Assembly: GCF_000739065.1 (NCBI RefSeq)
Contig: NZ_CP009149.1
Coordinates: 186,001-250,000 of the forward strand
DNA: 64,000 bases
Reading direction: 5' to 3'
DNA from: Methanocaldococcus bathoardescens
GTDB lineage: Archaea > AGJL01 > Methanococci > Methanococcales > Methanocaldococcaceae
Each line of letters begins with the position of its first letter. Within the stretch, counting starts at the first letter, position 1. The notes beneath the pieces are model-generated. The model was not told the origin of the DNA. It worked only from the letters and a program-made list of their open reading frames with translations, and did not search any database. Both the position numbers and the translations under genes were made by a program. Of this stretch, positions 9,984 through 30,063 are shown piece after piece.

Positions 9984-10679
9984 ATGGAGAATATCATCTA
10001 CAGCATATATCATCCGACGGTATTGGTTGGATTTGCCATTGGGATTCTGTCATTATTTGCCATTGGATTCCAAAAGGATGATTTGCATGCTTTAATATTG
10101 ACTGATGTTATTGAATGTGCAATGCTTATAATTATAGCTGGAGTTGGCACTGATTTAGCCGAAGCATTAATTTTACCAGGTTTAGTTGTTAGCTTAGCTG
10201 AGCTTTTAGCAGTTTCAGAAGTTTTGATAACAAGGAAGTATCTAAAATCAAAAAGACCTAAGCCAAGAAGCTATAGGTTGTTTGAAGAATTTAAACTTCC
10301 TCTACATACTGGAGAGCTAAAATACAACATTGAGATGGAGGTTTTAAAAACTGCTCCAAGATTTTTAGCTATAGTTTTGATTATTTATGGGGCTATATTA
10401 AGTGGATTTACCGGAGGGGCAGTTATAGCTACTGGATTGTTGTTTTATGCGTTATCTAAGAGGGCTTTGGGTTTAGAGATTTCAGAGGAATTAAAAACTA
10501 TGTGGGAAGGGATATCAGGGCTATCAGGAATTGCATGGGCTTTGTGGGTTATAGGATTTTTAGGTTTCTTTGTATTTCCAGATAAGTGGCTTCTCTGCCT
10601 ATTAATGGCTGGTTTGGGTTTAGTTATAAAGGTTGGCTCTAAATTAGGACTTATTGGCTATATAGGTGAAGTAAAATGA
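9984..10679 (+). CDS. ehaG: Energy-converting hydrogenase A subunit G
   Basis: A 231-residue membrane protein with six or so helices and a charged cytoplasmic loop (about residues 75-110, rich in Lys/Arg). The ATG at 9984 follows GGTGGGAG. Its TGA stop (10677-10679) lies inside a duplicated junction: a degenerate copy of the following gene's start overlaps it (AAAATGATTGA), and a palindromic element then separates it from ehaH. Before that insertion the two genes probably overlapped by ATGA. Confidence 0.78.
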
Positions 10680-10787
10680 TTGATAAAGCATAGGGGGATA
10701 CCTCCTAACCACATGTCCATTAAATTGGGGCTTTTAGCCTCAATTAATGTTCAATATTTATCATGACAGGTGAGATGAAATGATTGA
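10664..10787 (+). repeat. Palindromic junction element, copy 1 (decayed), with flanking duplication
   Basis: Between ehaG and ehaH. Left duplicate 10664-10683 (AGGTGAAGTAAAATGATTGA) and right duplicate 10768-10787 match at 17 of 20 bases and both span the ATGATTGA stop/start overlap with the AGGTGA ribosome binding site. The insert begins CATAGGGGGATACC, a head missing most of its hairpin, then a long tail hairpin at 10718-10749 (CATTAAATTGGGGC pairing with GCCTCAATTAATG). The right duplicate serves as the ehaH start. Confidence 0.7.
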
Positions 10788-11436
10788 ATCAATAACTGGC
10801 TATCTGTTTGGTATTGTTCCATTGGGTGATATTGTATTTGGCTTTTCGGAATTTTCCATTATTGGATTCATTACTGCAGTGATATTTACCATCATAGTTT
10901 ATCTAACAAATCCAGAAAAGCAGTTAGAAGCTCAAAAATTTAGAGTTGAAGATAAATTAGAAGTTGTTTCCCTAAAAGAATTAAAAATTAGAAGGATGAT
11001 GGCTATAGTTTGTGGAATAGCCACTGCTGGAGCTATGCTTACATGCGATTTGTTTGATTATGCTTTATTCTTAACATTAGTTGGAATTGCAAATATTGGG
11101 ATTGTTTCAGCAGTTAAAAGGGAGTGGGTTTTGACTGCAAGTTATCAGTATGGGCTTATAGCAATAATTGCTACTCTTCCATTATTTGGCTCTGCAGGGA
11201 TAATATTGGCTAAAACAGGAACATTATCAATATTCGAATTACCAAAAACTCAAACATCTTTATTATTTGAAAAAATTATGTTTGCAGCTGGAATGGCTGG
11301 AGAAACAGGGATAGCTCCTTTCTATGCAGCTAAAGCAGAGATGTTTAGAGCCCCCGGCTCTCCTTATATATTGATGATACATCTTTCCTCTTTATTGTTG
11401 ATTGTAAGAACTGTTGAGATTCTATTGACAATTTAA
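10780..11436 (+). CDS. ehaH: Energy-converting hydrogenase A subunit H (antiporter-like membrane subunit)
   Basis: A 218-residue membrane protein with six or seven helices. The segment MAGETGIAPFYAAKAEMF near residue 170 resembles the conserved region of NuoL/M- and EchA-type proton-translocating subunits, though the protein is much shorter than NuoL. The ATG at 10780 lies in the right-hand duplicate of the junction repeat with AGGTGA ahead of it. Its likely role is ion translocation in the Eha membrane arm. Confidence 0.8.
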   Translation: MIESITGYLFGIVPLGDIVFGFSEFSIIGFITAVIFTIIVYLTNPEKQLEAQKFRVEDKLEVVSLKELKIRRMMAIVCGIATAGAMLTCDLFDYALFLTLVGIANIGIVSAVKREWVLTASYQYGLIAIIATLPLFGSAGIILAKTGTLSIFELPKTQTSLLFEKIMFAAGMAGETGIAPFYAAKAEMFRAPGSPYILMIHLSSLLLIVRTVEILLTI

Positions 11437-11454
11437 AAAATTTGGGTGAAAAAC

Positions 11455-11655
11455 ATGGATGAAGAGAGAAAATTTGGACTGTATTCATTAATTGTTGGTC
11501 TATTGTGTGTTGTTGGAATTATCTTGTTTAGTGGATTGATATGCTATATATTGTATGTTATTGCAGTACCTTCTTTGTTGTATGGAATTGGAGCATTTGT
11601 AATTCCAAAAACAAGAAGAAAAGATATTGGGAAATTGCCATTTAGAGGATATTAA
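11455..11655 (+). CDS. ehaI: Energy-converting hydrogenase A subunit I
   Basis: A 66-residue protein with two closely spaced membrane helices (residues 9-50) and a basic C-terminus (PKTRRKDIGK). The ATG at 11455 is preferred over an upstream GTG because GGGTGA sits 4-9 bases before it. Assignment is by size and by position between ehaH and ehaJ. Confidence 0.72.
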   Translation: MDEERKFGLYSLIVGLLCVVGIILFSGLICYILYVIAVPSLLYGIGAFVIPKTRRKDIGKLPFRGY

Positions 11656-11683
11656 AGATTAAAATAAAAATCTGGGTGAGGAT

Positions 11684-12562
11684 ATGGACACATCACTTAT
11701 TGGAACTATAAATCTAACAATTCATGCATTTCTTGTTGGTTCTCTATTACTTGGATTGCATAGAAAGATAATGGCGAGAATTCAGGGGAGACCTGGCCCA
11801 CCAATAATTCAATACCTACTGCACACTCTAAAATTCTATGTAAAAGAAGTGACTTTCCCAATAACTGCTGGAAATCCACTCTATATATTTGTAGCTTTGT
11901 TAGATATTGCTATTTGGTTAGCTGCATTAATTATAGCTATTGATTTCAAATCATCCCTACTCATAATTATAGGAATCTATGTATTGCAAAAGATTGTTGA
12001 GCATGGTTGTGGTTTATCTTCTGGTTCACCTTATGGAAAATTGGGGGGAGTTAGAAGCGTCTTCTCAGCAGCTGCAGAAGTCCCTTTATTTGCTGTTGTA
12101 GCGGCCATATATTTAACAACACATTCAGTTTTAATTTCAGATATATTGAGTTATCAGGAAATAAACGGCAGTTTGCTGTTTAAAATGCCAATTTGTGCAT
12201 TTGCGTTCTTTGTACTGCTTGTTTCAAAAACACCAAATAGTCCATTTGGGATAGTTAAGGGTAAAGATATTGTTAGTGGATATATGACAGAACATTATGG
12301 ATTGTTGGGCTCTATAATCTATATTGCAGATGCAATAGCTTATTTCGTATTACTTTGGTTGTTTATAGCTGTATTTATTGGCCCTTCAGTAATAAACGAC
12401 CCAATATTGACATTGGCTACAATGGTAATAATGACAGTAATTTTGGCGTTTATTAATGGGCTAACACCATTATTAGCTCCACACCATTCAGTTATGCTTC
12501 AAATGACAATTGCAGGAATTGTATTGTGTGATGTTTTATACAGATTAATAACCGGGGGATAA
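11684..12562 (+). CDS. ehaJ: Energy-converting hydrogenase A subunit J (NuoH/EchB-like)
   Basis: A 292-residue protein with about eight helices. Near residue 30, RIQGRPGPPIIQYLLHTLKF matches the quinone-site/interface loop of NuoH, EchB and HycD, which links the membrane arm to the hydrogenase module. A second NuoH-like loop (GSPYGKLGGVRSVFSAAAE) lies near residue 112. The ATG at 11684 follows GGGTGAG. This is one of the best-supported Eha membrane subunits. Confidence 0.88.
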   Translation: MDTSLIGTINLTIHAFLVGSLLLGLHRKIMARIQGRPGPPIIQYLLHTLKFYVKEVTFPITAGNPLYIFVALLDIAIWLAALIIAIDFKSSLLIIIGIYVLQKIVEHGCGLSSGSPYGKLGGVRSVFSAAAEVPLFAVVAAIYLTTHSVLISDILSYQEINGSLLFKMPICAFAFFVLLVSKTPNSPFGIVKGKDIVSGYMTEHYGLLGSIIYIADAIAYFVLLWLFIAVFIGPSVINDPILTLATMVIMTVILAFINGLTPLLAPHHSVMLQMTIAGIVLCDVLYRLITGG

Positions 12563-12564
12563 AA

Positions 12565-12810
12565 ATGAAAAATTATGTTTATTTATTTACAATTGCATGC
12601 ATTATAGCGGTGATTTATGGAATACTCGTTACATTAATGCAATTTAATGTTATTTCAGTAGTTTTGATATTTGGATTAATCTTAATATTGACAATTTCAA
12701 CCATAAACAAAAAAATAGCTCATAAAATGGAAAGTCTTGAAATTTTGTTTATGCTCTTAGTTTTAGCTTTCTTTGCCTATGCAATTTATAAACTATACAT
12801 TCCTGCATAA
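12565..12810 (+). CDS. ehaK: Energy-converting hydrogenase A subunit K
   Basis: An 81-residue membrane protein with three helices separated by short charged turns ([10 protein letters not shown]). It starts three bases after the ehaJ stop, with GGGGGAT at the end of ehaJ as ribosome binding site. Assigned by position. Confidence 0.72.
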
Positions 12811-12823
12811 AATGGTGAGAAGA

Positions 12824-13111
12824 ATGTCGTTATTTGAGTTAAATTTGGCTATAATATTGTTTATCATTGGAAACTTTATTGGATTGGAATATAGCTATAG
12901 AAAATACACTTCCCCTTATGTAGAAAAAAAGATTGACAAAATTGCATTAGCTTTATCAATACTTGGTGGGATTTTAATTAATTCTCCGTTGTATATGCTT
13001 GGATATTTATTAATTGGATTTCCTTTAGGAATGAGGTCAGGATATGGAAGAATTGAGTTTATTGTAGGATTGATTATAGCAGTGTTCCTTTATCTTTTAT
13101 TGAGGTGGTAG
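12824..13111 (+). CDS. ehaL: Energy-converting hydrogenase A subunit L
   Basis: A 95-residue membrane protein with three helices. The frame is open further upstream, but ATG 12824 follows GGTGAGA and lies just after the ehaK stop, so the longer form, which would overlap ehaK, is unlikely. It is assigned by position within the operon. Confidence 0.72.
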
Positions 13112-13114
13112 TTT

Positions 13115-13531
13115 ATGGTTGAAACAGTTGATATTGACAAAAAATATGTTGAAAATTCATTAAAACAAAAAATAAACGTTCTTAAGGATAATAGGTTTTT
13201 GATGGATGATGTATTTATCCCAATAGCTAAAGCATTAAAAATTGATGTTGATGAAGTTGTTGAGATATTCGCCAAAAAGTTGGATTTTGCTTCTTGCTAT
13301 GAGTTGCATGCCTATGCAGAGCAGGCAAGGATGGGTTGTTTGGGAAGGAAAGTAGATATTGATTTAGGTTTATGCTGGCTCAGTGATTTCTTTGGATTAA
13401 TAAAAAAGGAAGAGGCAGATTTAATTAGGAAAAAGGTAGTTGAAAGCCATTTATTGTATAAAAAACCATATAAAGAGGCTTTGGAGGAAGGAAGAAAGTT
13501 AATTATCAAATTATTGAGGGATGAAGAATGA
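13115..13531 (+). CDS. ehaM: Energy-converting hydrogenase A subunit M
   Basis: A 138-residue soluble protein with no membrane helix, in contrast to its upstream neighbours. It contains [20 protein letters not shown] and a C-terminal helix rich in Lys and Glu. It precedes the hydrogenase small subunit, and the ehaM position in other methanogens is also a hydrophilic protein. Its TGA stop lies inside a duplicated copy of the ehaN start (GAATGATAAAAG), evidence that the two genes formerly overlapped. Confidence 0.78.
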
Positions 13532-13663
13532 TAAAAGAATTATAAAGAATTATTTAGAAACCATAGGGCTTCGCCCTATTGGGATACCCAGGATGCATTA
13601 ATTAGCTAAAGCTAATCAATGCCTCTTAAAATCATTGGGAGGAATGGTCATGATAAAAGAATT
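13528..13663 (+). repeat. Palindromic junction element, copy 2, with flanking duplication
   Basis: Between ehaM and ehaN. The duplicated core ATGATAAAAGAATT occurs at 13528-13541 and 13650-13663 (14 of 14), with weaker similarity continuing upstream through the ribosome binding site (ATTGAGGG versus ATTGGGAGG). The insert has a perfect head hairpin CCATAGGGCTTCGCCCTATTGG at 13561-13582 (about), then GATACC and a tail hairpin at 13594-13622 (GCATT...AATGC enclosing ATTAGC/GCTAAT). The right copy starts ehaN. Confidence 0.78.
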
Positions 13664-14096
13664 CTTCAGAAAAAGGTCAATACATGTGTGTGTTGTCAAT
13701 ACTGGGGGATGTAATGGATGTGATATTGAAATCGTCTCTTGCTTAGCCCCGAGGTATGATATTGAGCAGTATGGGATTTATGTTCATAACAACCCAAGAG
13801 AAGCTGATGTTCTGCTTATTACAGGGCCTGTAACTTTACAATGGGCAGAAAGATTGAAGGAGATTTATGAAAAAACACCAGAACCAAAAGTAGTTGTTGC
13901 TGTTGGGGCATGTGCTTTAAGTGGAGGGATTTTTAAGGAAGGGCATGTTGTTGGAGGAGTTCATAAAGTTATCCCAGTAGATGCAAAAATTCCAGGCTGT
14001 CCACCAAGACCTTCTGAGATTATTGAAGCAGTATTAAAAGTTGCACCAAAAGCAATAGCAATGAGAGAGAAAAAACTAAAAAACAAAGATGAGTGA
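13650..14096 (+). CDS. ehaN: Eha [NiFe] hydrogenase small subunit
   Basis: A 148-residue protein of the NuoB/EchC family, which holds the [4Fe-4S] cluster closest to the active site. The cluster ligands are seen in [20 protein letters not shown] and IPGCPPRP. It is short, as energy-converting hydrogenase small subunits are. ATG 13650 follows GGGAGG by 7 bases; another ATG at 13644 is possible. The start lies in the right-hand duplicate of a palindromic insertion. Confidence 0.92.
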
Positions 14097-15234
14097 AAAT
14101 ATGGCAACAATTCCTATAGGGCCAATTCATCCAATATTAAAAGAGCCGTTGAGAATTAAACTTGTTTTAGATGGAGAAAAACCCGTTGATGCTGAAATTG
14201 AGATGGGTTATGTGCATAGAGGTATAGAAAAAATTATGGAAGGGAAACACTGCCATAAAGGGATACATTTAGCTGAAAGAGTTTGTGGAATCTGCTCTTA
14301 CATTCATACAATGACATTTGCTGAATGTATTGAGCATATATCAAAGATAGAGGTTCCTGATAAGGCAAGGTATTTGAGAGTTGTTACATGCGAATTAGAA
14401 AGAATACATAGTCATTTAATAGCTTCTGCAGTGTATAACTTCGCTATTGAACATGAAACACTTGGTATGTGGCTTTTGAATGTTAGGGAAATAATTATGG
14501 ATTTATTGGAAATGATTACTGGGAATAGGGTTAATATGGGTTATAATGTGATTGGTGGGGTTAGGAGAGATATAAATAGAGAGATGGTTGATGAGATTTA
14601 CAAAAAACTTGATATCTTTGAAGATGAAATAAAAAATATTATTGAAGTATTTGAAACAGGCCCATTAATTGCTTTGAGAAGTAAAGGAATTGCTATACTG
14701 CCATATCACGAAATTATGAGAACAAGGGCTGTGGGACCAGTTTGTAGAGGTTCTGGACTGCCAGAAAGTGATTGGAGATTAAGACATCCAACATATCAAG
14801 AACTTAAATTTAAGCCAGTGTGGAGAAAAGAAGGAGATAATTTTGCAAGGATGATGGTAAGGCATGAGGAGATTATAGAAAGTATTAGGTTGATTAGGGA
14901 AGCTTTAGAACTCTATGAAGAATGCTCAGGAGATGTTAGAGTTAAGGCAGAGATTAAAGGAGGAGAAGGGGAGTGGAGAAATGAAGCACATAGAGGGGAA
15001 GTAACATATAGAATAGAGGTTACTGATGGAGGAATAATAAAAAGAATAATGATTAGAACGCCAACTGTGATGAACTTGGAAGCTTACAAATATATGCTAA
15101 AAACCTGCCCAACAGTAGCTGATGCTTTATCTGCTTATGCAAGTATCGACCCCTGTGTTTCATGCACAGAAAGAAGTATCGTTGCTATAAAAGATGGTAA
15201 GGAAATTCCATTAAAATTTGGATTAAAACTTTAA
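14089..15234 (+). CDS. ehaO: Eha [NiFe] hydrogenase large subunit
   Basis: A 381-residue protein of the EchE/NuoD family. Both Ni-binding CxxC motifs are intact: [10 protein letters not shown] near residue 65 and DPCVSCTER near residue 360, so the Ni-Fe site should be functional. It has no long C-terminal extension after the second motif. It overlaps ehaN by eight bases; an ATG at 14101 is an alternative start. Together with ehaN it forms the H2-activating module that feeds electrons to the polyferredoxins encoded next. Confidence 0.93.
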
Positions 15235-15280
15235 GGGGATTACCAAAAATTTTGATTTTTAAGTATATTGGGTGATTATT

Positions 15281-16498
15281 ATGGCATCCTCATTATGGTA
15301 TCTTTATGAATTTGCAAGAAAAAAATGGATTAAGAGATTTATTGATGCAAAATCAGATAAGAGCTCTTATATCCCACCAGAAAGGTATAGAAAAATCCCC
15401 CCAATTATTAAATTTCCTGAAAGATGTATATCCTGTGAAGCCTGTAAAGAGAGTTGTCCTGCTTTTGCAATTGAAATGATATACAACGAGAGTTACAATA
15501 AAAAACTTCCAGAAATTGACGATGGCTCATGTGTTGCATGTGCTAACTGTATTGAAGCCTGTCCAACAGGAGTCTTAGAAATGGATAAGCATAGGGTTGA
15601 AACAGAAGGATTGTTTTTTGATATATCTAAATATAACAACCTTATAATTGACGAAGAAGTGTGTGTTAGATGTGGGAATTGTGAAAGAGCTTGCCCAATC
15701 AATGTAATTGAGCGTAAAGAAGGGAAGTATGTAATAGATATGGCTTCATGTATTTCATGTAAGGAATGTATTAAAGCCTGTCCAATTGAAAATGCTATAG
15801 TTGTTGTTGACGAAAAAACCTTAAAAGAAAAAATAGACAAAGCCTTTGAAATTAAAAACAAAAAAATTGCTGGAAAGTTGGAGATTAAAGAGAATGCCAT
15901 TGAAGAAGTTCCACACATAGTTAATAGTTTATGTATAACTTGTGGAGCTTGTAAGGATGTGTGTGTAGGAGAGATTGATTTGACAGAGAAAAAAGTTATT
16001 GAGTGTGTGAGATGTGGATTATGTATAGATGTCTGCCCAACAACTGCTATAAGAGTATATGTTCCAATTATTCCAAAGAAAAGAGATATTTGCTATGTTA
16101 TTGATGAAGATTTATGTATTGGATGTAGAATCTGCCAGAAAGTGTGTGAGGTTAATGCAATTAACATTAGCAGAGAAACAAAACTGCCTTACATTGTGCC
16201 AGAATCATGTATTAGTTGTGGAGTATGTGAGAGAGAATGTCCTGTTGGAGCTATAAAGGTTGTTAAACCAGAAGAAGCTAAGGAAGCTGTTAAAGTTAGA
16301 ATAATAGAAGATAAGATAATCGAGAGTATTGAGGCAGATTTAATGCTATACACTGAGAAGTATGGAAAGGTTAAGGAAGAGATTGAGAACTTATCCCTCA
16401 AAAAGTTGAAGGAAGAATTAAAGAGAAGAGTTTATGAAGAAAACAAAAGAATAAAGGAAATGAAGAGGGAGTTGTATGATAAAGGAAATAATAGCTAA
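15281..16498 (+). CDS. Eha-linked polyferredoxin with eight [4Fe-4S] motifs
   Basis: A 405-residue protein with eight CxxCxxCxxxC motifs that I can count (for example CISCEACKESC, CVRCGNCERAC, CISCGVCEREC); the fifth and seventh lack the final Pro. The C-terminal 80 residues are a charged helix. The ATG at 15281 follows GGGTG. It occupies the ehaP position and probably carries electrons between EhaN and acceptor enzymes. The sequence consists of degenerate repeats, so gene duplication of a 2-cluster unit is likely. Confidence 0.88.
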   Translation: MASSLWYLYEFARKKWIKRFIDAKSDKSSYIPPERYRKIPPIIKFPERCISCEACKESCPAFAIEMIYNESYNKKLPEIDDGSCVACANCIEACPTGVLEMDKHRVETEGLFFDISKYNNLIIDEEVCVRCGNCERACPINVIERKEGKYVIDMASCISCKECIKACPIENAIVVVDEKTLKEKIDKAFEIKNKKIAGKLEIKENAIEEVPHIVNSLCITCGACKDVCVGEIDLTEKKVIECVRCGLCIDVCPTTAIRVYVPIIPKKRDICYVIDEDLCIGCRICQKVCEVNAINISRETKLPYIVPESCISCGVCERECPVGAIKVVKPEEAKEAVKVRIIEDKIIESIEADLMLYTEKYGKVKEEIENLSLKKLKEELKRRVYEENKRIKEMKRELYDKGNNS

Positions 16499-16967
16499 AC
16501 ATTTCAATTTAGACAATAAAAACATCCAAGTACTCCCCAAATTCAATATCATTTTAAATAAAAGGGAAATTATTGTTAAAGAAGATAAATGTATCAATTG
16601 TGGTAGATGTATTGAAGTTTGCCCAGTTAATGCAATAACCTATGATGAGAGTGGTTTATTTGTAACTATTGACAGAGAAAAATGTATTTTCTGTGGAAAA
16701 TGTAAAAAGGTCTGTCCAACAGATGCTATTGTGATAATAAGATTGAGATGTGAAATTAATGAGGATGCAAAGATAATTGAAGTAGATAAGTATGAGTTTA
16801 TTGAATATATGAGTGAAAAATGTGCCTCTTGCTTAGTATGCTTAAAAAACTGTCCATTTAATGCTATTGAAGAGTATGGAGATAAAATAAGAATTGATAT
16901 AAATAAATGTGAGCTCTGTGGAAGATGTGAAGAATTATGTCCATTAAATGCTATAGTTCTAAGGTAA
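16476..16967 (+). CDS. Eha-linked polyferredoxin with four [4Fe-4S] motifs
   Basis: A 163-residue protein with four cluster motifs (CINCGRCIEVC, CIFCGKCKKVC, CASCLVCLKNC, CELCGRCEELC), each followed by Pro. It overlaps the preceding polyferredoxin by 23 bases in another frame, with GAGGGAG upstream of the ATG, so the two are coupled. It is part of the Eha electron wire. Confidence 0.88.
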   Translation: MIKEIIAKHFNLDNKNIQVLPKFNIILNKREIIVKEDKCINCGRCIEVCPVNAITYDESGLFVTIDREKCIFCGKCKKVCPTDAIVIIRLRCEINEDAKIIEVDKYEFIEYMSEKCASCLVCLKNCPFNAIEEYGDKIRIDINKCELCGRCEELCPLNAIVLR

Positions 16968-17002
16968 AATATTAGATTTTTGAAATTCTTAAGGTGATTG
17001 CA

Positions 17003-17746: not shown

Positions 17747-17841
17747 TATAGGACTTTCGCAGGAATAAATCTTTAAAGGAAAATGATGCCTTTTAGGCAT
17801 CTAAATTCCAAAGTTGATATATAAACTGCGAAAGTCCTATA
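17747..17841. mobile_element. MITE-like palindromic element, copy 1
   Basis: A 95-bp element with 16-bp perfect terminal inverted repeats, TATAGGACTTTCGCAG at 17747-17762 and its complement at 17826-17841. An inner palindrome GATGCC/GGCATC lies in the centre. There is no coding capacity. It starts directly after the stop codon of the last eha polyferredoxin and may also act as a transcription end structure. Confidence 0.85.
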
Positions 17842-18018: not shown

Positions 18019-18030
18019 CTTTTATTTAAC

Positions 18031-18832: not shown

Positions 18833-18873
18833 TTTATTAATTTTAAGTAATAATGAACAGTTTTTAGGTGGTG

Positions 18874-19013
18874 TTTATGGTATTGGGAAAAATAACCTCT
18901 CCATAGGGCTTCGCCCTATTGGGATACTCACTAACACCTCCGCTTACAGCGGAGGTGTAAATTCAAATAATAAAATTTGGTGATATTTATGGTATTGGGA
19001 AAGATATCCTCTC
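18874..19013 (+). repeat. Palindromic junction element, copy 3, with flanking duplication
   Basis: Between the two OB-fold genes. The 28-bp start region TTTATGGTATTGGGAAA.. is duplicated at 18874-18901 and 18986-19013 with two mismatches. The insert (18901-18985) has head hairpin CCATAGGGC-TTC-GCCCTATTGG, then GATACTC and tail hairpin ACACCTCCGC-TTACA-GCGGAGGTGT (18934-18958). The left copy is now a 9-codon orphan ORF (ATG 18877) that reads into the element and stops at its own CCATAG. Confidence 0.82.
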
Positions 19014-19693
19014 TATTACCAAATTCACAGATTTTAACAAAAGTTAAGATTGTAGATATTAGAAGAAAGGAGAGTGAAGAGGGGGCTGTATTTTACATTG
19101 GAACTATGGTTGATAAAGATGGAGTAGCGAATTTTATAACAACAATTCCCTTAGAAAAGGAAAAATGTTATGAGATATTTGGTAGAGTAACAGAAGAAAA
19201 GAGCGTTAGAATAGTTGAAAAGATTATTAAAGGTGTAAAATATCCAAGAGAAATTCCAGAAATTCCTAAAGAGCAACTATATAATAGAGGAGAAGTCTTA
19301 GATGTGAAAGTTCCAGCCATATTGGAAGTTTCTCAATCAACAATATTTGTAAATTACTACTGTAGAATCTGTAGAGGTATCGTTGAAACAAAGATTAAGC
19401 CAAGAGGAATGGTTTATATTTGTAGAAATTGTGGTGAAATAGAGCCGGATGATGTTGATGTAAAAATTAAGGTGTTTGGGAGAATACACTTTGGAACTTC
19501 TTCAAAAAGATGCTATATTCCACCGGCAACATTAGAGCAATTTATGCCAGGAATTTTAGATATGCTTGAAGAGTATGGAATTGATGATACAATTAGAGAA
19601 ATATGCCTTAAATTAAATGGAAAAACATTCTTAGTTAGAGGTTTTGAAGGTAAGGAAGGGAATTACATAATAACTGAAATGGAAGATATTTAA
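18989..19693 (+). CDS. OB-fold protein with zinc ribbon, RPA-like
   Basis: A 234-residue protein. Residues 15-90 form an OB-like domain (VKIVDIRRKESEEG, FYIGTMVDKDG). Near residue 120 lies a four-cysteine zinc ribbon (YYCRICRG ... YICRNCGE), as in the C-terminal part of archaeal RPA. The ATG at 18989 lies in the right copy of a duplicated start region with TTGGTGA upstream. Both ends of this gene carry palindromic insertions with duplicated gene ends. A single-strand DNA or RNA binding role is inferred. Confidence 0.7.
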   Translation: MVLGKISSLLPNSQILTKVKIVDIRRKESEEGAVFYIGTMVDKDGVANFITTIPLEKEKCYEIFGRVTEEKSVRIVEKIIKGVKYPREIPEIPKEQLYNRGEVLDVKVPAILEVSQSTIFVNYYCRICRGIVETKIKPRGMVYICRNCGEIEPDDVDVKIKVFGRIHFGTSSKRCYIPPATLEQFMPGILDMLEEYGIDDTIREICLKLNGKTFLVRGFEGKEGNYIITEMEDI

Positions 19694-19845
19694 TATTCCA
19701 TAGGGGCAAAGCCCTATTGGTATACCCCAGAGCTGGGCTTCACTGCGTTCAGCCCCACTTTAAAAATTTAAAAATGGGAGTATCCCAATAGAGGGGCTTC
19801 GCCTCCTCTATGGTTACTATAATAACCGAAATGGAAGATATTTAA
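19667..19845 (+). repeat. Palindromic junction element, copy 4 (head-to-head), with flanking duplication
   Basis: The 27-bp gene end ATAATAACTGAAATGGAAGA.. with its TAA is duplicated at 19667-19693 and 19819-19845 with one mismatch. The 116-bp insert (19698-19813) has a head at each end, in opposite orientation: CCATAGGGGCAAAGCCCTATTGG at the left and CCCAATAGAGGGGCTTCGCC..CTCTATGG at the right. A further hairpin with GCTGGGC/CAGCCCC lies between them. Confidence 0.82.
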
Positions 19846-19978
19846 AATTTTTAAATCTTTTTTTGCTCTATTTGCTTAATCTTTAATTTAAATAATCAGA
19901 TTTTGTTAAACTTGCCTTTATATTTATATTTATGTAAGCTCTTTTATTTTATTAACCAAAACTCAAAGAGGTAGGACT

Positions 19979-22340: not shown

Positions 22341-22407
22341 ACTACCACCAATAAAATTTAGATAAATTTATTATATTCTTATACATACTTAACTATGGTG
22401 GTTATTT

Positions 22408-23037: not shown

Positions 23038-23089
23038 CTTTTCACCAAAAGTTTTAGATTTGTTTCTATTTTTATTCTCGTTGATATTT

Positions 23090-23929
23090 TTATAGTTTTA
23101 TAGCCCCAACAATAAATGCCAAAAGAACAATGTTCATTATAATTTTTAAAAATTTTGAAACATTTGAGGCAGTGTCTCTATTTGGGCTCTTTAATAATAA
23201 AGCCATAGCATAGATAAACAAAATATCACATATTGCTATCAAAATTAGGTAATATATTCCAAATATTTTTAGTATATATGGTAAAGGACTTAATACAACT
23301 GCCAAAATAACCAAAAATGTGGCAAAATATAAAGATTTTTTACCATACTTTATTGGTAATGAAATAACACCTTCTTTTTTATCCCCTTCCATGTCCTCAA
23401 AATCCTTAACAATCTCTCTACCCCAAATTGAAAGCAAAGAGCATAAAAACAAAATAATAACTGGCATAACATTTTTTCCAGCAACTCCACCAAATAGAAA
23501 TACAGAACCAGTTAAATAGCCAATAATAAAATTTCCAATTGGTTTATATCGTTTGTATTTTTTTGCATACAGGTAGAGAAAGATAGCATTAACCACAGCT
23601 ATAATTAATGTATATATATTTATAAATATTGAGAGAGTTAAGCCAAAAATTAATAAAATAGCTGAAAATTTTTTTGCCTCATTTAATTTAATTTTTCCTG
23701 ATGGTAAAGGACGAAATGGCTTATTTATCTTATCTATCTCAATATCAAAAATATCATTTATCACATTTCCATAAGCACAAACAAAAAATACAACAAAAAA
23801 CACTAAAAGACCTTTTAATATTTCAATCTCAAAGTTTGATGAGATTAAATAACCTATAATTCCACCAATAGATGCAGTTATGCAGTTTTTGACTCTAATA
23901 AGTTCTAAATAACTTCCTATCTTCCTCAT
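23090..23929 (-). CDS. UbiA prenyltransferase, digeranylgeranylglyceryl phosphate synthase type
   Basis: A 279-residue membrane protein with about eight helices. The first aspartate-rich motif is NDIFDIEIDKINKPFRPLPS (residues 60-80), the second is REIVKDFEDMEGDK (about residue 175). This UbiA subfamily adds the second geranylgeranyl chain in archaeal ether lipid synthesis, the step before saturation by geranylgeranyl reductase. The ATG at 23929 follows GGGGG, so the upstream TTG is rejected. This resembles MJ0279 (from memory). Confidence 0.9.
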   Translation of the reverse strand: MRKIGSYLELIRVKNCITASIGGIIGYLISSNFEIEILKGLLVFFVVFFVCAYGNVINDIFDIEIDKINKPFRPLPSGKIKLNEAKKFSAILLIFGLTLSIFINIYTLIIAVVNAIFLYLYAKKYKRYKPIGNFIIGYLTGSVFLFGGVAGKNVMPVIILFLCSLLSIWGREIVKDFEDMEGDKKEGVISLPIKYGKKSLYFATFLVILAVVLSPLPYILKIFGIYYLILIAICDILFIYAMALLLKSPNRDTASNVSKFLKIIMNIVLLAFIVGAIKL

Positions 23930-23975
23930 AAAAACCCCCAAAATATAATGTTTTTATTTGTAAAAAATATAACAA

Positions 23976-23989
23976 AAACTATTTATATA
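23976..23989 (+). promoter_or_regulatory. Promoter of the FKBP gene
   Basis: AAAACT followed by TTTATATAT (23982-23990) is a strong BRE/TATA pair; it would start a transcript near 24010, leaving a short leader with TTAGGAG before the gene. Confidence 0.65.
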
Positions 23990-24031
23990 TCCTTCACAAG
24001 AAGTATTTGGAAAGGTTAGGAGTTGATTAAC

Positions 24032-24493
24032 TTGATTAAAAAAGGCGATTATGTTAAGGTAGACTACATTTTAGTCGTAGATGGAGAAGTTATTGACACA
24101 TCAATAGAAGAAGTTGCTAAAGAAAACGGCATATACTACCCTGAAAGGGATTATGAACCATTAGGTTTTGTTGTAGGCAATGGAGATTTAATTGAAGGTT
24201 TTGAAGAAGCCGTTATAGGCATGGAAGTTGGTGAAGAAAAAACTGTAACTATCCCACCAGAAAAAGGTTATGGACTTAGGGATGAAAGATTAATTCAGGA
24301 AATTCCTAAAGAAATGTTTGCTGATGCTGATTTTGAACCACAGGAAGGGATGTTAATTTTAGCCAGCGGAATCCCTGCAAAGATAATAAAAGTTACAGAT
24401 GATACAGTAACCTTAGATTTCAACCACGAGCTTGCTGGAAAGGAGCTAACATTTACAATAAAAGTATGTGAAGTCCAGCCAGCTGAACAATAA
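24032..24493 (+). CDS. FKBP-type peptidyl-prolyl isomerase, archaeal short form
   Basis: A 153-residue protein: FKBP strands [20 protein letters not shown], the core [20 protein letters not shown], and an IF (insert-in-flap) domain region between residues 80 and 130, ending with the FKBP closing strand [10 protein letters not shown]. Such proteins combine prolyl isomerase and chaperone activity. TTG 24032 is preferred over TTG 24023, since GGAG lies 9 bases ahead of it. This resembles MJ0278 (from memory). Confidence 0.88.
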
Positions 24494-24661
24494 ATTCATT
24501 ACCTCTTTTTTATCATACTTAAATTTAAAATTATTTAACGACAACATATTTTTTTATATTAAATTTTCAAAAGTTTTTCAAATACTAAATCTTTGGTATA
24601 AAAATTTATATATGATTTCAATTTTATCATTACTTTACCCTTAACATTTTTTGGTGATTAG

Positions 24662-26437
24662 ATGAAAGGTGCTGAGGCAATTATAAAGGCATTAGAAACT
24701 GAAGGAGTTAAGATTATATTTGGTTATCCAGGAGGGGCAATGCTACCATTTTACGATGCGTTGTATGATAGCGATTTAATTCACATACTAACAAGGCACG
24801 AGCAGGCAGCAGCACACGCAGCGGATGGATTTGCGAGAGCAAGTGGAGAGGCAGGAGTTTGCGTCTCTACTTCAGGGCCTGGAGCTACAAACTTAGTTAC
24901 TGGAATAGCAACTGCTTATGCAGATTCATCGCCAGTTATTGCTTTAACAGGGCAGGTTCCAACAAAACTTATAGGAAATGATGCATTTCAAGAGATTGAT
25001 GCTCTCGGCTTATTTATGCCAATAACAAAACACAACTTCCAAATAAAAAAGCCAGAAGAGATTCCTGAAACATTTAGAGCAGCTTTTGAGATTGCTACAA
25101 CTGGAAGACCAGGACCTGTTCATATAGACATCCCAAAAGATGTGCAAGATGGAGAGATTGATATTGAGAGATATCCAATTCCAGCAAAGGTTGATTTGCC
25201 TGGCTATAAACCAAAAACTGTAGGGCATCCTTTACAGATTAAAAAAGCTGCTAAGTTAATAGCTGAGGCAGAGAGACCTGTAATTTTAGCTGGTGGAGGA
25301 GTTATAATTAGTGGAGCTTCAGAAGAGTTGTTAAGATTAGCTGAGTTTGTTAAAATCCCAGTTTGCACCACTTTAATGGGTAAAGGAAGCTTTCCAGAAG
25401 ACCATCCTCTATCTTTAGGAATGATTGGAATGCATGGAACTAAAGCTGCAAATTATGCAGTTACAGAATGTGATGTTCTCATAGCAATTGGTTGTAGATT
25501 TTCAGATAGAGTTACTGGAGATGTTAGATACTTTGCCCCAGAAGCTAAGATTATACACATAGATATAGACCCAGCTGAAATAGGGAAGAATGTTAGAGCA
25601 GATATTCCAATAGTTGGAGATGCAAAAAATGTTTTAAGAGATTTGTTAGCTGCATTAATTGCATTAGAGATTAAAAATAAAGATGCATGGCTCGAAAGAA
25701 TTTATGAACTAAAAAAGCTATCTATTCCAATGATGGACTTTGATGACAAACCAATAAAGCCACAGAGATTTGTTAAAGATTTAATGGAAGTTTTAGATGA
25801 GATTGACCCTAAATTAAAAAATACAATTATAACAACAGATGTTGGACAAAACCAAATGTGGATGGCCCACTTCTTTAAAACAAAGATGCCGAGAAGCTTT
25901 TTAGCTTCTGGTGGTTTAGGAACTATGGGATTCGGATTCCCAGCGGCAATTGGAGCTAAGGTTGCTAAACCTTATGCTAATGTTATCTCTATTACTGGAG
26001 ATGGAGGCTTTTTAATGAATTCTCAGGAGTTGGCAACAATTAGTGAATATGATATTCCAGTTGTTGTTTGCATCTTTGACAACAGAACTTTAGGAATGGT
26101 TTATCAATGGCAAAACTTATATTATGGGCAGAGACAGAGTGAAGTGCATTTGGGAGAGAGTCCAGATTTTGTTAAATTAGCTGAAAGTTATGGAGTTAAA
26201 GCAGAAAGAATAACAAGTCCAAATGAGATTAAAGAGAAATTAAAAGAGGCAATATTAAGTAACGAGCCATACCTCTTAGATATTGTCATAGACCCTGCTG
26301 AAGCTCTACCAATGGTTCCACCAGGAGGAAGATTAACCAATATAATTCAACCAGTTAGAGTAGAACCAAAAATTAAAAAACCTGAATTTGAGGAGATTAA
26401 AAAGATAAGAGAAATGACTGCTGTTAAAGAGTTCTAA
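24662..26437 (+). CDS. ilvB: Acetolactate synthase large subunit
   Basis: A 591-residue thiamine diphosphate enzyme that makes 2-acetolactate (valine/leucine) or 2-aceto-2-hydroxybutyrate (isoleucine). The ThDP glutamate lies in RHEQAAAHAADGFARA (about residue 47), and the diphosphate motif is GDGGFLMNSQELATISEYDI (about residue 448). A small regulatory subunit is not adjacent. The TTTATATAT box at 24605-24613 is the likely promoter. Together with CimA at 30.2 kb, which makes 2-oxobutyrate precursors, it serves branched-chain amino acid synthesis. Confidence 0.95.
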   Translation: MKGAEAIIKALETEGVKIIFGYPGGAMLPFYDALYDSDLIHILTRHEQAAAHAADGFARASGEAGVCVSTSGPGATNLVTGIATAYADSSPVIALTGQVPTKLIGNDAFQEIDALGLFMPITKHNFQIKKPEEIPETFRAAFEIATTGRPGPVHIDIPKDVQDGEIDIERYPIPAKVDLPGYKPKTVGHPLQIKKAAKLIAEAERPVILAGGGVIISGASEELLRLAEFVKIPVCTTLMGKGSFPEDHPLSLGMIGMHGTKAANYAVTECDVLIAIGCRFSDRVTGDVRYFAPEAKIIHIDIDPAEIGKNVRADIPIVGDAKNVLRDLLAALIALEIKNKDAWLERIYELKKLSIPMMDFDDKPIKPQRFVKDLMEVLDEIDPKLKNTIITTDVGQNQMWMAHFFKTKMPRSFLASGGLGTMGFGFPAAIGAKVAKPYANVISITGDGGFLMNSQELATISEYDIPVVVCIFDNRTLGMVYQWQNLYYGQRQSEVHLGESPDFVKLAESYGVKAERITSPNEIKEKLKEAILSNEPYLLDIVIDPAEALPMVPPGGRLTNIIQPVRVEPKIKKPEFEEIKKIREMTAVKEF

Positions 26438-26532
26438 ATTTTAAATTAATTAATATCTACCTTATTTTTCAACTTTTTATAAATTTTTCCAATTTCTCTT
26501 CTAAAGCCAAAATTATGAATGGAGGGGGTTTA

Positions 26533-27633
26533 ATGAAAGTAGAATTCATGCAAGGAAACCAGGCATGTGCAAAAGGAGCTATAAAAGCAGGATGTAGATT
26601 TTTTGCTGGCTATCCAATAACACCATCTACAGAGATAGCGGAAGCAATGGCAAGAGAATTGCCAAAGGTTGGGGGCTATTATATTCAAATGGAAGATGAG
26701 ATTGGGAGTATAGCAGCAGTTATTGGGGCAAGTTGGGGAGGATTAAAGGCAATGACAGCAACTTCAGGACCTGGATTTAGTTTAATGCAAGAAAATATTG
26801 GATATGCGTATATGACAGAAACCCCTTGTGTAATTGTTAATGTTCAAAGAGGAGGGCCATCAACAGGACAGCCAACTATGGCTTCCCAAGGAGATATGAT
26901 GCAGTGTAGATGGGGAAGCCATGGAGATTATGAAGTTATTGCCTTAGCCCCAAGTTCTGTCCAGGAGATGTATGATTTCACAATAATGGCATTTAACTAT
27001 GCTGAAAAATACAGAGTTCCTGTTTTTGTAATGGCTGATGAGATAGTTGGGCATATGAGAGAGAAAGTTGTTTTACATGACAACATAGAAATAATAGATA
27101 GAAAAAAGCCAGAAGAAAAACCATGTAAAAAGCCATATCCTTTTGATGTTGATGTTCCACCAATGCCTGTTTTTGGTGAGGGCTATAATGTGCATATTAC
27201 TGGTTTAACTCACGATGAGAGAGGCTATCCTGATGTCTCAGCTGAAACACATGATAAATTAGTTAGAAGATTAGTCAATAAAATAAGAAAAAATAAAGAT
27301 GATATAGTTAAGTGGGAAGGGGAGAATTTAGATGCAGAAATAATGTTTGTTTGCTATGGAACACCTTCAAGAACTGTAAAATACACCGCCAATAAATTAA
27401 GAGAAAAGGGATTGGATGTAGGATATATAAGATTAATAACTGTCTATCCATTCCCTGACGAGTTGTTGAAAAAATTAAAAGCAAAGAAGGTTATAGTTCC
27501 AGAGATGAACTTAGGGCAGATATATTATGAAGTTGAGAGAGTTTGTAAAAAAGCTGATGACGTAATTTTAGTTGATAAGATTGGTGGGGAGTTGCATAGA
27601 CCAGAAGAATTAGAGAAAGCTGTTTTGGAATAA
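26533..27633 (+). CDS. korA: 2-oxoacid:ferredoxin oxidoreductase alpha subunit, KorA type
   Basis: A 366-residue subunit of 2-oxoglutarate:ferredoxin oxidoreductase, which in methanogens runs towards 2-oxoglutarate synthesis with reduced ferredoxin. GCRFFAGYPITPSTEIAEAM near residue 20, TSGPGFSLMQENIGYAYMTE and GGPSTGQPT are family signatures. The ATG at 26533 directly follows GGAGGGGG. The beta, gamma and delta subunits are not encoded here, a split also seen in M. jannaschii (from memory). It supplies the carbon skeleton used by the nitrogen genes further on. Confidence 0.88.
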   Translation: MKVEFMQGNQACAKGAIKAGCRFFAGYPITPSTEIAEAMARELPKVGGYYIQMEDEIGSIAAVIGASWGGLKAMTATSGPGFSLMQENIGYAYMTETPCVIVNVQRGGPSTGQPTMASQGDMMQCRWGSHGDYEVIALAPSSVQEMYDFTIMAFNYAEKYRVPVFVMADEIVGHMREKVVLHDNIEIIDRKKPEEKPCKKPYPFDVDVPPMPVFGEGYNVHITGLTHDERGYPDVSAETHDKLVRRLVNKIRKNKDDIVKWEGENLDAEIMFVCYGTPSRTVKYTANKLREKGLDVGYIRLITVYPFPDELLKKLKAKKVIVPEMNLGQIYYEVERVCKKADDVILVDKIGGELHRPEELEKAVLE

Positions 27634-27680
27634 TTTTATAATTTTTTTATTTAAATTAAAATCCAATTTGGGGATAACTT

Positions 27681-28310
27681 ATGAGAAAGTTAATAATATT
27701 TTTTTTATCTTTGATTTTAATTGCCTCTATTTGTGGATGTTTTAATAATGGAAAAAAAGAGATTAATGAATTAAATATATCTGCCAAAAATGAAAATATA
27801 CAAAATCACAAAAATATATCAATAGAAAATCCAAGAATGGACAATTTAAAAGATAATAACAAAATCAACATTACAAACAATGAAAGTATTGCAAATAATA
27901 TGACAAATGATACAAAAGAAACTAAAAAATATGATTTTTCAAAGCAAATAGATATAGATGAGATGTTTTTAAATCTTCCTTATGAAAAAACGATAGAATA
28001 TGAAGGATGTGTAATAAAAAAATATAGCAGTAATGGATTTACTGTTACATTTGAAGTCAGCACAAAGCCAATTGATTTCTCTTATGCATACATATATAAT
28101 GAAGTCAAAAAATATCCACAAAGAGATGCATTTGGTGATTACACTTATTATGAGTTCATCCCAAGAAATGTCAATTTATCAATTAGTTACTGCTACTATA
28201 GGGAAGTAGGTAACTATTATATAGTTATGCAAACTTATGAAAAGAGCAAAAGAGCTAATGATTTGTGGATAAATTGGACTAAACACATATTTAGTTTATT
28301 TGAAGAATAA
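27681..28310 (+). CDS. Secreted lipoprotein of unknown function
   Basis: A 209-residue protein with a signal peptide and lipobox (LIASICGC, Cys at residue 19-20). An Asn/Lys-rich low-complexity linker (residues 24-90) is followed by a folded domain of about 115 residues with many tyrosines ([20 protein letters not shown]). It is probably anchored outside the cell membrane. I do not recognise the domain. Confidence 0.75.
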
Positions 28311-28336
28311 ATCTTTTTTATTTTATTTTTAAAATT

Positions 28337-28407
28337 AAAAATCGCCTCAGTGCTCATACGGCTCATCACAAATTCAGCAAAGCCAATCATCATCATTGGC
28401 GATTTTT
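28337..28407 (-). ncRNA. C/D box sRNA (2'-O-methylation guide), antisense strand
   Basis: Read on the minus strand: 10-bp terminal stem AAAAATCGCC/GGCGATTTTT (28398-28407 with 28337-28346), box C ATGATGA (28390-28396), guide TGATTGGCTTTG, box D' CTGA (28374-28377), spacer ATTT, box C' GTGATGA (28363-28369), guide GCCGTATGAGCA, box D CTGA (28347-28350). Both guides are 12 nt and all four boxes match the archaeal consensus. The predicted targets are the complements UGCUCAUACGGC and CAAAGCCAAUCA, with methylation at the fifth base. The gene fits exactly in the gap before the radical-SAM gene. Confidence 0.92.
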
Positions 28408-28418
28408 TGGTGGTTATT

Positions 28419-29954
28419 ATGATAGAAAGAGCTTTGATATTGGATGGCTATACTGACGAACCAGCTGGTTTGGGAGTTCCCCCTTATATAGGAACTTATC
28501 CAAGATATGCATATGGTGTTTTAGATAAATATGATGTTAAAGTGGATTATATAACTATCGATAAATTTAGAGAGATTAGAGGAGATTTTAATTTAGATAA
28601 ATACGATGCAATAATCTGCATCTGTGGCTTTCACACACCTGGGAAATATCTAAATGCAAATCCTGCTACATTAAAGGAGTTTGTTTCTATATTATATAAG
28701 TATGGTGGTTTAAAAATTTTGGGAGGGCCGTCAGCAACAAAATATGGCTCTTCAATGATTGGAGGAAAGATAGAGGATGAAAGTAAATATAAAGCATTTT
28801 TTGACGTGGTTGCTGAAGGTGATTTAGAGGCAGTTTTAAATGATTTGTTAAGGGAGAAAAGTATAGAGAAAGTTGATTTTAACAGATATAGAACTTATGA
28901 AGAGTTAAGAGAATATGCTATTAGAGGAGCTAAAGTTGTTAAAAAGCATCCAAATTATCCATATATAATAGCTGAGATTGAAACTTATAGAGGATGCTCA
29001 AGAGCTTTAACTGGAGGCTGCTCTTTCTGCACAGAGCCGAGAAGGTTTGGATTGCCAACATTTAGAGATGAAAAAGATATAATAGATGAGATTAAAGCAC
29101 TATATAATGAAGGAATAAAATATTTTAGAATTGGAAGACAACCATGTATGTTTTCATACAAATCAATTGATTCAGAAAAGGAAGAGGTTCCAAAACCAAA
29201 TGTTGAGGCAATTGAAAAGTTATTTAAAGGCATTAGGAATGTTTCAAATCCAAAGGTTTTACATATAGATAATGCCAATCCTGCAGTGATAGCAAGGCAT
29301 GAAGATGAAAGCAGAAAGGTAGCTAAAATATTGGTTAAATACTGCACAAGTGGGAATGTTGCAGCTTTTGGTGTTGAGAGTTTTGATGAGAAAGTAATTA
29401 AAGCCAATAACTTATTAACAACACCAGAAGATGTTTTAAAAGCTGTAGAAATTTTAAATGAAATTGGTGGAAAAAGAGGAGAAACAGGATTGCCATATTT
29501 ATTGCCCGGCATAAATTTATTGTTTGGATTAAAGGGAGAGAGAAAAGAAACCTTTACTATAAATTTTGAATATTTAAAAGAAATCTATGATAGGGGCTTT
29601 ATGATTAGAAGGATTAACATAAGGCAAGTTGTTCCATTTTTTGGAACTGAAATAACTCTAAAAGATATAAAAAAAGCAGAAAAAAGAAAAAAATTATTTT
29701 TATGGTTTAAAGAAAAAGTTAGGGAAGAGATAGATAATAAAATGCTTAAGAGAGTTGTGCCAAGAGGGACAATATTAAAAGATGTATTTGTTGAAGTTAA
29801 AGAGAGAGAAGATTTATATTTTGGAAGGCAATTTGGAACTTATCCAATTTTAGTAGGGATTGTTGATAAAAATCTTAAAATTGGAGAATTTGTGGATGTT
29901 GAAATTGTTGATTATGGAAGGAGGTCGATAACTGGAAGGGTTATTAAACCATAG
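28419..29954 (+). CDS. B12-binding-type radical SAM protein with TRAM domain
   Basis: A 511-residue protein. The N-terminal part (residues 1-150) resembles a cobalamin-type Rossmann domain, the radical SAM core begins at YRGCSRALTGGCSFCTEPRR, and the last 60 residues form a TRAM-like RNA-binding barrel (FVDVEIVDYGRRSITGRV). The cluster motif is CX7CX2C rather than CX3CX2C. ATG 28419 follows TTTGGTGG; the longer frame would run through the sRNA gene. The end is altered by a palindromic insertion: the last residue and stop (CCA TAG) come from the element. The substrate is unknown, possibly an RNA. Confidence 0.82.
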   Translation: MIERALILDGYTDEPAGLGVPPYIGTYPRYAYGVLDKYDVKVDYITIDKFREIRGDFNLDKYDAIICICGFHTPGKYLNANPATLKEFVSILYKYGGLKILGGPSATKYGSSMIGGKIEDESKYKAFFDVVAEGDLEAVLNDLLREKSIEKVDFNRYRTYEELREYAIRGAKVVKKHPNYPYIIAEIETYRGCSRALTGGCSFCTEPRRFGLPTFRDEKDIIDEIKALYNEGIKYFRIGRQPCMFSYKSIDSEKEEVPKPNVEAIEKLFKGIRNVSNPKVLHIDNANPAVIARHEDESRKVAKILVKYCTSGNVAAFGVESFDEKVIKANNLLTTPEDVLKAVEILNEIGGKRGETGLPYLLPGINLLFGLKGERKETFTINFEYLKEIYDRGFMIRRINIRQVVPFFGTEITLKDIKKAEKRKKLFLWFKEKVREEIDNKMLKRVVPRGTILKDVFVEVKEREDLYFGRQFGTYPILVGIVDKNLKIGEFVDVEIVDYGRRSITGRVIKP

Positions 29955-30063
29955 AATTTAAATTTTGCACCTCCAAGCGTGAGCGAGGAGGTGTTAGCGG
30001 GTATACCAATAGGGCGAGGCCCTATGGATGGAAAGAGGTCAATAACTGGAAGAGTTGTTAAGC
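29916..30063 (-). repeat. Palindromic junction element, copy 5 (reverse orientation), with flanking duplication
   Basis: The 34-bp end of the radical-SAM gene is present at 29916-29949 and again at 30030-30063 with five mismatches, all transitions. The right copy still reads GKRSITGRVVKH and a TGA stop. The insert (29949-30027) is the reverse of copy 3: its complement reads CCATAGGGC-CTC-GCCCTATTGG, TATACC, CTAACACCTCC and the pairing GGAGGTG. Its left end CCATAG supplies the stop codon of the functional gene. Confidence 0.82.

Follow-up and report, generated by a model that had tools for sequence, protein, structure and literature searches.

Five short insertions in a 64,000-nucleotide stretch of the Methanocaldococcus bathoardescens genome (hereafter the window) are each accompanied by a direct duplication of the target that is missing in insert-free relatives. 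One end of the element, a hairpin that we call the head, is sharp, and no gene is carried. We consider it probable that these insertions belong to a genus-wide family of non-autonomous, MITE-like hairpin elements, that a putative inserting activity breaks the target about 30–60 bp apart, and that the two resulting copies were later partly homogenised within lineages. The family is widespread in a model hyperthermophilic, methane-producing archaeal genus, and we know of no other prokaryotic mobile family whose target duplications span 20–70 bp.

Five insertions and their empty sites

A first-pass annotation of the window had described five inserts sharing one head. All five are present (Table 1) and four of the heads are intact, whereas that of the 10.7 kb element has decayed; the orthologous insert in genome G008 retains the intact form, GCATAGGAGGAGACCTCCTATTGCTATAC. 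Orthologous inserts also occur at 18.9 kb in G007 and G008 and at 30.0 kb in G007, and the 19.7 kb site of G008 holds a two-headed element too, with another inner module. The flanking repeats, first put at 14–34 bp, measured 20–37 bp in the window. At 13.6 kb the repeat has a 22 nt core (13528-13549/13650-13671, 86%) that is lengthened by the Shine-Dalgarno region; at this site in G008 the two copies are identical at 35/35 positions.

Table 1. Elements and flanking copies at the five sites, in window coordinates; repeat lengths are followed by percentage identity.
Site	Feature	Positions	Strand	Details
10.7 kb	Orphan copy D1	10664..10683	+	Shine-Dalgarno/start region of downstream gene 10780-11436; overlaps end of upstream gene
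10.7 kb	Element 1	10688..10767	+	Decayed head GCATAGGGGGATACC and tail hairpin (ATGTCCATTAAATTGGGGCTTTTAGCC.. module)
10.7 kb	Functional copy D2	10768..10787	+	Shine-Dalgarno and ATG of gene 10780-11436; repeat 20 nt, 85%
13.6 kb	Orphan copy D1	13528..13560	+	Start region of gene with ATG 13650; holds 10-bp internal tandem duplication
13.6 kb	Element 2	13561..13636	+	Intact head 13561-13587 (GGGATAC type) and GGATGC..GCATTGCCTCTT-type tail hairpin
13.6 kb	Functional copy D2	13637..13672	+	Shine-Dalgarno and start of NuoB-like hydrogenase-type subunit gene
18.9 kb	Orphan copy D1	18864..18900	+	Gene 18989-19693: Shine-Dalgarno, ATG and initial codons
18.9 kb	Element 3	18901..18975	+	Intact head 18901-18927 and ACACCTCC..GGAGGTGT tail hairpin
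18.9 kb	Functional copy D2	18976..19012	+	Start of gene 18989-19693; repeat 37 nt, 86%
19.7 kb	Functional copy D1	19663..19697	+	Last codons and stop TAA of gene ending 19693
19.7 kb	Element 4, two-headed	19698..19813	head +, inverted head -	Heads 19698-19725 (+) and 19780-19813 (-); inner CAGAGC..CAGCCCCACT hairpin
19.7 kb	Orphan copy D2	19814..19849	+	Copy of gene end, abuts second head; repeat 35 nt, 92%
30.0 kb	Copy within functional gene	29914..29947	+	Gene 28350-29954; stop TAG 29952-29954 outside repeat
30.0 kb	Element 5, inverted	29948..30027	-	Head 30001-30027 (-); tail hairpin ACACCTCC..GGAGGTGC; CTATGG at gene-side end
30.0 kb	Orphan copy	30028..30061	+	Copy of gene end; repeat 34 nt, 88%

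Comparison with empty sites bore out the duplication at all five positions: insert-free relatives carry a single copy, and each of the two copies in the window can be aligned with it. The overlap of the two alignments was 19–27 bp at 10.7 kb (single copy in G001, G006, G009 and G010), 26–48 bp at 13.6 kb and 34–37 bp at 30.0 kb (again G001, G006, G009 and G010). Direct reading of the other two sites gave a single copy in G001, G006, G005, G009, G010, G012 and G013 at 18.9 kb, and in G001, G007, G009, G010, G012 and G013 at 19.7 kb. The proposal that these duplications are unusually long held up as well, with 20–37 bp in the window and 17–70 bp across the family, against the 2–10 bp of MITEs.

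The two copies appear, from their base differences, to have been partly homogenised within each lineage after insertion. Over eight site comparisons, 15 positions were alike within a genome and different between genomes, versus 3 with the opposite pattern.

The head hairpin and its spread in Methanocaldococcus

The head has the form CCATAGGG..loop..CCCTATTGGKATAC and is followed by KATAC; an unpaired T is kept in 73/73 distinct heads. Its loop varies in length, which misaligned the 5' arms in the multiple alignment, so base pairs were counted by script. Compensatory changes among distinct heads affect the outer pair (C-G in 61, G-C in 5), the third inner pair (G-C 61, A-T 5), the fourth (C-G 27, G-C 37) and the fifth (G-C 25, C-G 9).

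The 1.6 Mb M. bathoardescens genome contains 54 matches to the head with at most two mismatches, and a reversed-pattern control gave 0. A covariance model, built from the 27-nt head class only, found 55 heads in the same genome, 10–59 apiece in ten further genus genomes, one in G002 and none in G003 or G011. The search across Methanocaldococcus that had been suggested for this hairpin thus places the family in 12 of 14 genomes. Outside the genus the model returned one strong match, in G016 of the same order, and three marginal ones (E 0.006–0.009). Matches beyond Methanocaldococcaceae in a scan of GTDB r220 were scattered single records, at the chance level for a collection of that size. In a virus collection, a head 16-mer occurs in 13 contigs, which could be chance. 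No curated Rfam family fits the elements; above threshold, the window contained only two sR3 snoRNAs.

Elements are modular and about 75–250 bp long, with composites of up to about 400 bp, and none of the copies read has a coding sequence or a gene for a transposase or Cas1-type integrase. Most copies have a single head and a different hairpin at the opposite end; inverted heads at both ends occur at 19.7 kb in the window and at loci L067, L096 and L105. In their layout, the pneumococcal BOX elements and similar modular repeats are alike in being intergenic and assembled modularly from several repeat units; we know of no long gene-end duplication by BOX elements.

Duplicated gene ends across the genus

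A flanking repeat anchored on the head and scoring at least 30 was found at 62 of 131 head occurrences (47%), compared with 1.8% for mispaired left and right flanks. The duplications vary in length from 17 to 70 bp, mostly 32–49 bp where well preserved and some reaching about 60 bp, and include further cases in G001, G002, G016 and G012 (one in G012 being 42 bp with one mismatch). At about half of the heads no duplication is recognisable, which nested or composite heads and decay explain in some cases. Longer windows, searched for partner duplications, yielded nothing beyond composites assembled from the family's own modules. The idea that the tail-side AT-rich filler is a decayed duplication found no support, its mean similarity to the other flank being that of the mispaired control. 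One element end is consequently poorly defined, because the AT-rich stretch between hairpin and duplication resembles the other flank only at the chance level.

Long target duplications are known in prokaryotes from IS1202-type elements (about 24–29 bp) and casposons (14–15 bp). The present elements resemble both in this unusual length, but theirs is fixed or narrow and they encode a transposase or Cas1, whereas the elements here are geneless and their duplications longer and variable.

Outside CRISPR arrays, nearly all duplications cover a stop codon, a Shine-Dalgarno sequence with the start, or the 3' end of a tRNA. Beside protein genes, the orphan copy of a single-headed element always lies on the head side, and at 19/28 gene-3'-end sites the stop codon lies no more than 5 bp from where the recognisable duplication starts. 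Selection, which had been suggested as a possible reason for the boundary location, accounts for the predominance of gene ends among the detected duplications, since duplicated non-coding sequence decays and a duplication inside a gene disrupts it. Selection leaves unaccounted the head-side orphan and the 19/28 clustering at stop codons.

A gene that receives an element still works because the insertion adjoins an extra copy of the gene's own end, and the family offers a clean test case for mobile DNA kept harmless by duplicating the gene end that it would otherwise break. The interrupted gene had been described as regenerated intact, which is too strong: at 30.0 kb, L101 and L316 the insert supplied a new stop or C-terminus. 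At 30.0 kb the gene's own end was replaced: it now terminates in ..GRVIKP*, and its insert-free counterpart in G006 in ..GRVVKL*. Besides rewriting stop codons and C-termini, insertions have split apart genes that overlapped and have invaded both tRNA ends and CRISPR arrays.

Candidate modes of insertion

Under the MITE-like explanation that we favor, the inserting activity would open the target with breaks in its two strands that usually lie 30–60 bp apart, the element would be joined between the opened strands, and filling of the gaps would produce a long, variable duplication. Insertions at gene edges would be those that persist and stay recognisable, because one copy restores the Shine-Dalgarno sequence and start, the stop codon or a tRNA 3' end and the other becomes the orphan. 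Prokaryotic MITEs are likewise short, non-coding, multicopy and rich in inverted repeats, with direct target duplications, and some copies here share their inverted ends. They differ in duplicating a fixed 2–10 bp, and most copies here have only one sharp end and no parent insertion sequence with the same ends was found. Against staggered insertion stand the missing transposase gene in every copy, the failure to find an autonomous relative and a duplication length that is not fixed, unlike that of classical DDE transposons. No source element with a protein gene between the same ends turned up among the stretches read; in G008, head pairs separated by 1.6–1.7 kb (L093, L094) flank ordinary genes of the host. 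The inserting enzyme is probably encoded elsewhere in the genome. We found no earlier description of such elements in the open-access literature searched.

The head-side orphan and the clustering of the tail-side break at stop codons (19/28) are not predicted by random staggered cutting followed by selection. It is possible, though we hold it only tentatively, that the elements arrive by a new mode of DNA insertion at gene boundaries in which no fixed-stagger transposase, reverse transcriptase or HUH nuclease takes part: the tail would be placed at the stop codon or Shine-Dalgarno sequence and the head 30–60 bp inside the gene, whose end would be copied, with conversion keeping the copies alike.

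The strongest rival, which we regard as unlikely, is template switching after insertion. An element would insert at a gene edge with little or no duplication, and its strong hairpin would make the replication fork skip beyond it, copy 20–70 bp from the end of the gene and then jump back, so that an orphan lies before the head. This accounts for the variable length, the fixed orphan side in single-headed elements, the breaks at gene boundaries and the lineage-specific similarity of the copies, and the elements are rich in hairpins; but it needs two switches with a precise return at nearly every site. A skip landing just past the tail should also copy the filler, yet filler is missing from the orphans at L101 (20 bp) and L096 (11 bp), where the duplicates are 97–100% identical, and the solitary element copies in G002 and G016 come with a duplication too.

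Less probable again is off-target joining of hairpin DNA by the CRISPR adaptation integrase Cas1-Cas2, with duplication of a repeat-sized stretch. Of the enzymes looked for and found, it alone normally yields a duplication of about 30 bp. Cas1 is present in all eleven genomes with at least 10 heads and absent from G002 (1 head) and G003 (0 heads), a match that may just reflect phylogeny, and G011 has two Cas1 genes yet no element. Many CRISPR arrays contain elements between their last repeats. Leader position and repeat orientation place these at the trailer end, which does not receive new spacers, and entry as ordinary spacers was rejected. Unlike spacer integration, the insertions occupy gene ends genome-wide, involve a recurrent element that exceeds spacer length, and leave duplications mostly longer and more variable than the 30–32 bp CRISPR repeats.

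Two further enzymes are largely excluded. Retroposition by target-primed reverse transcription would fit the anatomy, since LINEs and SINEs share the variable long duplication and the combination of one exact and one ragged, AT-rich end, here a sharp head and a variable tail with filler; it is made very improbable by the lack of any RVT_1 (PF00078) reverse transcriptase in the 14 genus genomes, in a search whose positive controls worked. Movement by an HUH transposase of the IS200/IS605 or REP type, recognising a hairpin with an unpaired base, is equally improbable. The conserved unpaired T, the adjoining fixed motif, the intergenic location and the modular, composite layout recall REP/BIME sequences and their RAYT (TnpA-REP) enzymes, but Y1_Tnp (IS200-type) occurs in only 2/14 genus genomes, and nearly all carriers of the elements, M. 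bathoardescens included, lack it; to our knowledge these transposases leave no target duplication, and REPs are not known for one. Chance similarity of AT-rich flanks has next to no probability: in this AT-rich genome the mispaired control still gives 1.8% at the same score, but the observed 47% and the alignments with empty sites for each of the five window insertions rule it out.

Gene-end duplications flanking the hairpin inserts

We read each of the five window sites and located the head motif, the conserved sharp-ended hairpin of the element, on both strands. The first-pass annotation had described palindromic inserts at gene boundaries with an imperfect duplication of a gene end, and this description proved accurate. 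The head is intact at four of the five inserts; that of the 10.7 kb insert has decayed to GCATAGGGGGATACC, and a related genome (G008) preserves an intact ortholog of it (GCATAGGAGGAGACCTCCTATTGCTATAC). The flanking repeats were confirmed, with lengths of 20, at least 22, 37, 35 and 34 nt at the five sites and 85–92% identity. The comparison with empty sites that the annotation had proposed bore it out: relatives without the insert carry a single copy at all five sites, indicating that the duplication arose with or after insertion and ruling out an older feature of the gene.

As a duplication test across the family, we aligned the flank before each head with the flank after it, using a cut-off score of at least 30 and mispaired flanks as a control. 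A duplication anchored at the head was detected at 62 of the 131 heads of the first set, compared with 1.8% for the control; many of the remaining heads lie inside composites or belong to old copies. Duplications ranged from 17 to 70 bp, longer, as had been claimed, than the 2–10 bp of MITEs. Lengths of 32–41 bp were common among well-preserved duplications of the first set, and two genomes of the genus (G001 and G012) had duplications of 42, 46, 48, 49 and 59–61 bp, including one 42-bp case with a single mismatch.

MITEs are defined by a duplication of short, fixed length, which was tested for here and not observed, and no parent element was found. For these reasons we do not class these elements as MITEs proper, and file them with the MITE/palindromic-repeat kind as a new variant. 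No matching description of the family was found among the open-access papers searched. RepRanger provides palindrome counts for two Methanocaldococcus genomes, and the hairpin family is not described in the portion of that source drawn on here (PMC12306157).

Coordinates of the inserts and other features, with the genomes sharing each insert and the length over which both window copies align to the single copy at empty sites
Feature	Position	Shared by	Empty-site alignment
Insert	window, ~10.7 kb		19–27 bp
Insert	window, ~13.6 kb	G000, G008	26–48 bp
Insert	window, ~18.9 kb	G000, G007, G008	one copy in relatives (direct reading)
Insert (two heads)	window, 19698–19813	G000, G008	one copy in relatives (direct reading)
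Insert	window, ~30.0 kb	G000, G007	34–37 bp
C/D box RNA sR3 family	window, 6467–6521		
C/D box RNA sR3 family	window, 28345–28400		
Composite pair L064	G000, 145.6 and 146.5 kb		
Solitary copy	G002:C1:721665–721691		
Solitary copy	G016:C50:5546–5572		

Element anatomy and distribution

The head hairpin has the layout CCATAGGG(G)(C)–three-base loop–(G)(C)CCCTATTGG, followed by KATACC. Its stem shows paired changes, the outer pair being C-G in 61 cases and G-C in 5 and the inner pairs varying as G-C/A-T and C-G/G-C, and an unpaired T is conserved in all 73 distinct heads. The interior consists of one or more further hairpin units (ACACCTCC..GGAGGTGT, GGATGC..GCATTGCCTCTT, ACGTCCATTAAG..AATTAATGTCCA, CAGAGCGGGG..CAGCCCCACT and GATGAACCTTTT..AAAAGGTTCAT), and some copies (the 19.7 kb insert and loci L067, L096 and L105) carry a second, inverted head at the opposite end. 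No copy contains a gene, and no Rfam family matched. At L090 and L105, a different inverted-repeat element (AACCAATTATCAAAG..CTTTGATAATTGGTT) splits the ACGTCCATTAAG hairpin module; it apparently belongs to a second, nested family of small mobile elements. The L064 composites, near-identical and ~870 bp apart, have a 29-bp flanking duplication once the modules left of the head are counted in.

The window covers positions 186001–250000 of the M. bathoardescens genome (G000; 1,607,556 bases). In this genome a search with the 15-base head core, allowing at most two mismatches, gave 54 matches, and its reversed pattern gave none. The covariance model search suggested in the annotation found heads across the genus, with 55 in this genome and 10–59 in each of ten more; G002 has a single head, and G003 and G011 have no heads. 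In the rest of the order, one match was strong (G016) and three were marginal. Among 84,980 species genomes scanned, numerous Methanocaldococcaceae records matched, along with isolated single records dispersed over other groups. The solitary copies in G002, a host without detected Cas1, and in G016, from a genus of another family, each have a flanking duplication and would represent either relics or horizontal transfer.

Placement at gene ends, tRNAs and CRISPR arrays

Nearly every duplication outside CRISPR arrays includes a stop codon, a Shine-Dalgarno sequence and start, or a tRNA 3′ end. The claim that the interrupted gene is regenerated intact goes too far, as several genes are restored inexactly: the protein at 30.0 kb ends in GRVIKP* rather than the GRVVKL* of insert-free G006, and at loci L101 and L316 the reading frame continues beyond the duplication into the insert. 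By manual count over 28 gene 3′-end sites, the recognisable duplication unexpectedly starts no more than 5 bp from the stop codon at 19, farther inside the gene at 7 and farther outside it at only 2. Decay of the non-coding part may explain some of this clustering, but the similarity to the other flank of the stretch separating the last hairpin from the duplication was no higher than chance, and some near-identical duplications (L101 and L096) have 11–20 bp of unrelated filler there. For single-headed elements beside protein genes, the functional gene's copy is the one on the side of the tail, the variable hairpin end, with no clear reverse case among ~37.

At six tRNA loci from four genomes (L092, L100, L107, L112, L157 and L163, two of them orthologous), the duplicated stretch runs from the T loop to ~10–17 nt beyond the 3′ end, with GTTC in the intact gene versus GTTT in the other copy at all six. 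The elements at these tRNAs always terminate in a AAAAGGTTC-type hairpin, which is slightly altered at two loci.

Most CRISPR arrays read in two genomes of the genus (G009 and G013) have an element at the leader-distal end, lodged between the two final, degenerate repeats, and M. bathoardescens arrays have one near that end. These loci are L183–L193 in G009 and G013, where the head lies exactly at the repeat's end and the sequence beyond that repeat is mostly array-specific, as if array and element had spread as one unit, and L194–L197 in M. bathoardescens.

Insertion mechanism and history of shared inserts

These observations are consistent with a mobile element of the non-autonomous type. 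Such an element would be placed between two breaks, usually 30–60 bp apart, and the gaps beside it would then be filled in. The strongest rival is that template switching occurs at the hairpin once the element is in place, since it accounts for why the orphan copy, the duplicate lying across the element from the functional one, keeps to one side. Contrary to template switching, however, the filler at sites such as L101 and L096 is left uncopied. Cas1 as the inserting enzyme fares less well; it occurs in all 11 genomes with at least 10 heads and is missing from G002 and G003, but it is also present in G011, which lacks the element, and the duplications exceed CRISPR repeats in both length and variability. 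A search of the genus for RVT_1 reverse transcriptases found none, and Y1 transposases are absent from the M. bathoardescens genome and 11 of the 13 other genus genomes.

Several inserts are common to two or three species. Among these, the two copies are the same within a genome and different between genomes at 15 positions, versus 3 of the opposite type, a count in which two 18.9 kb comparisons have one genome in common. The simplest reading of such lineage-specific changes common to both copies is gene conversion between them, the alternative being repeated insertion at the same spot. At the 19.7 kb insert and its G008 counterpart (L105), site and heads are the same but the inner hairpin modules differ, suggesting that inner modules may be exchanged.
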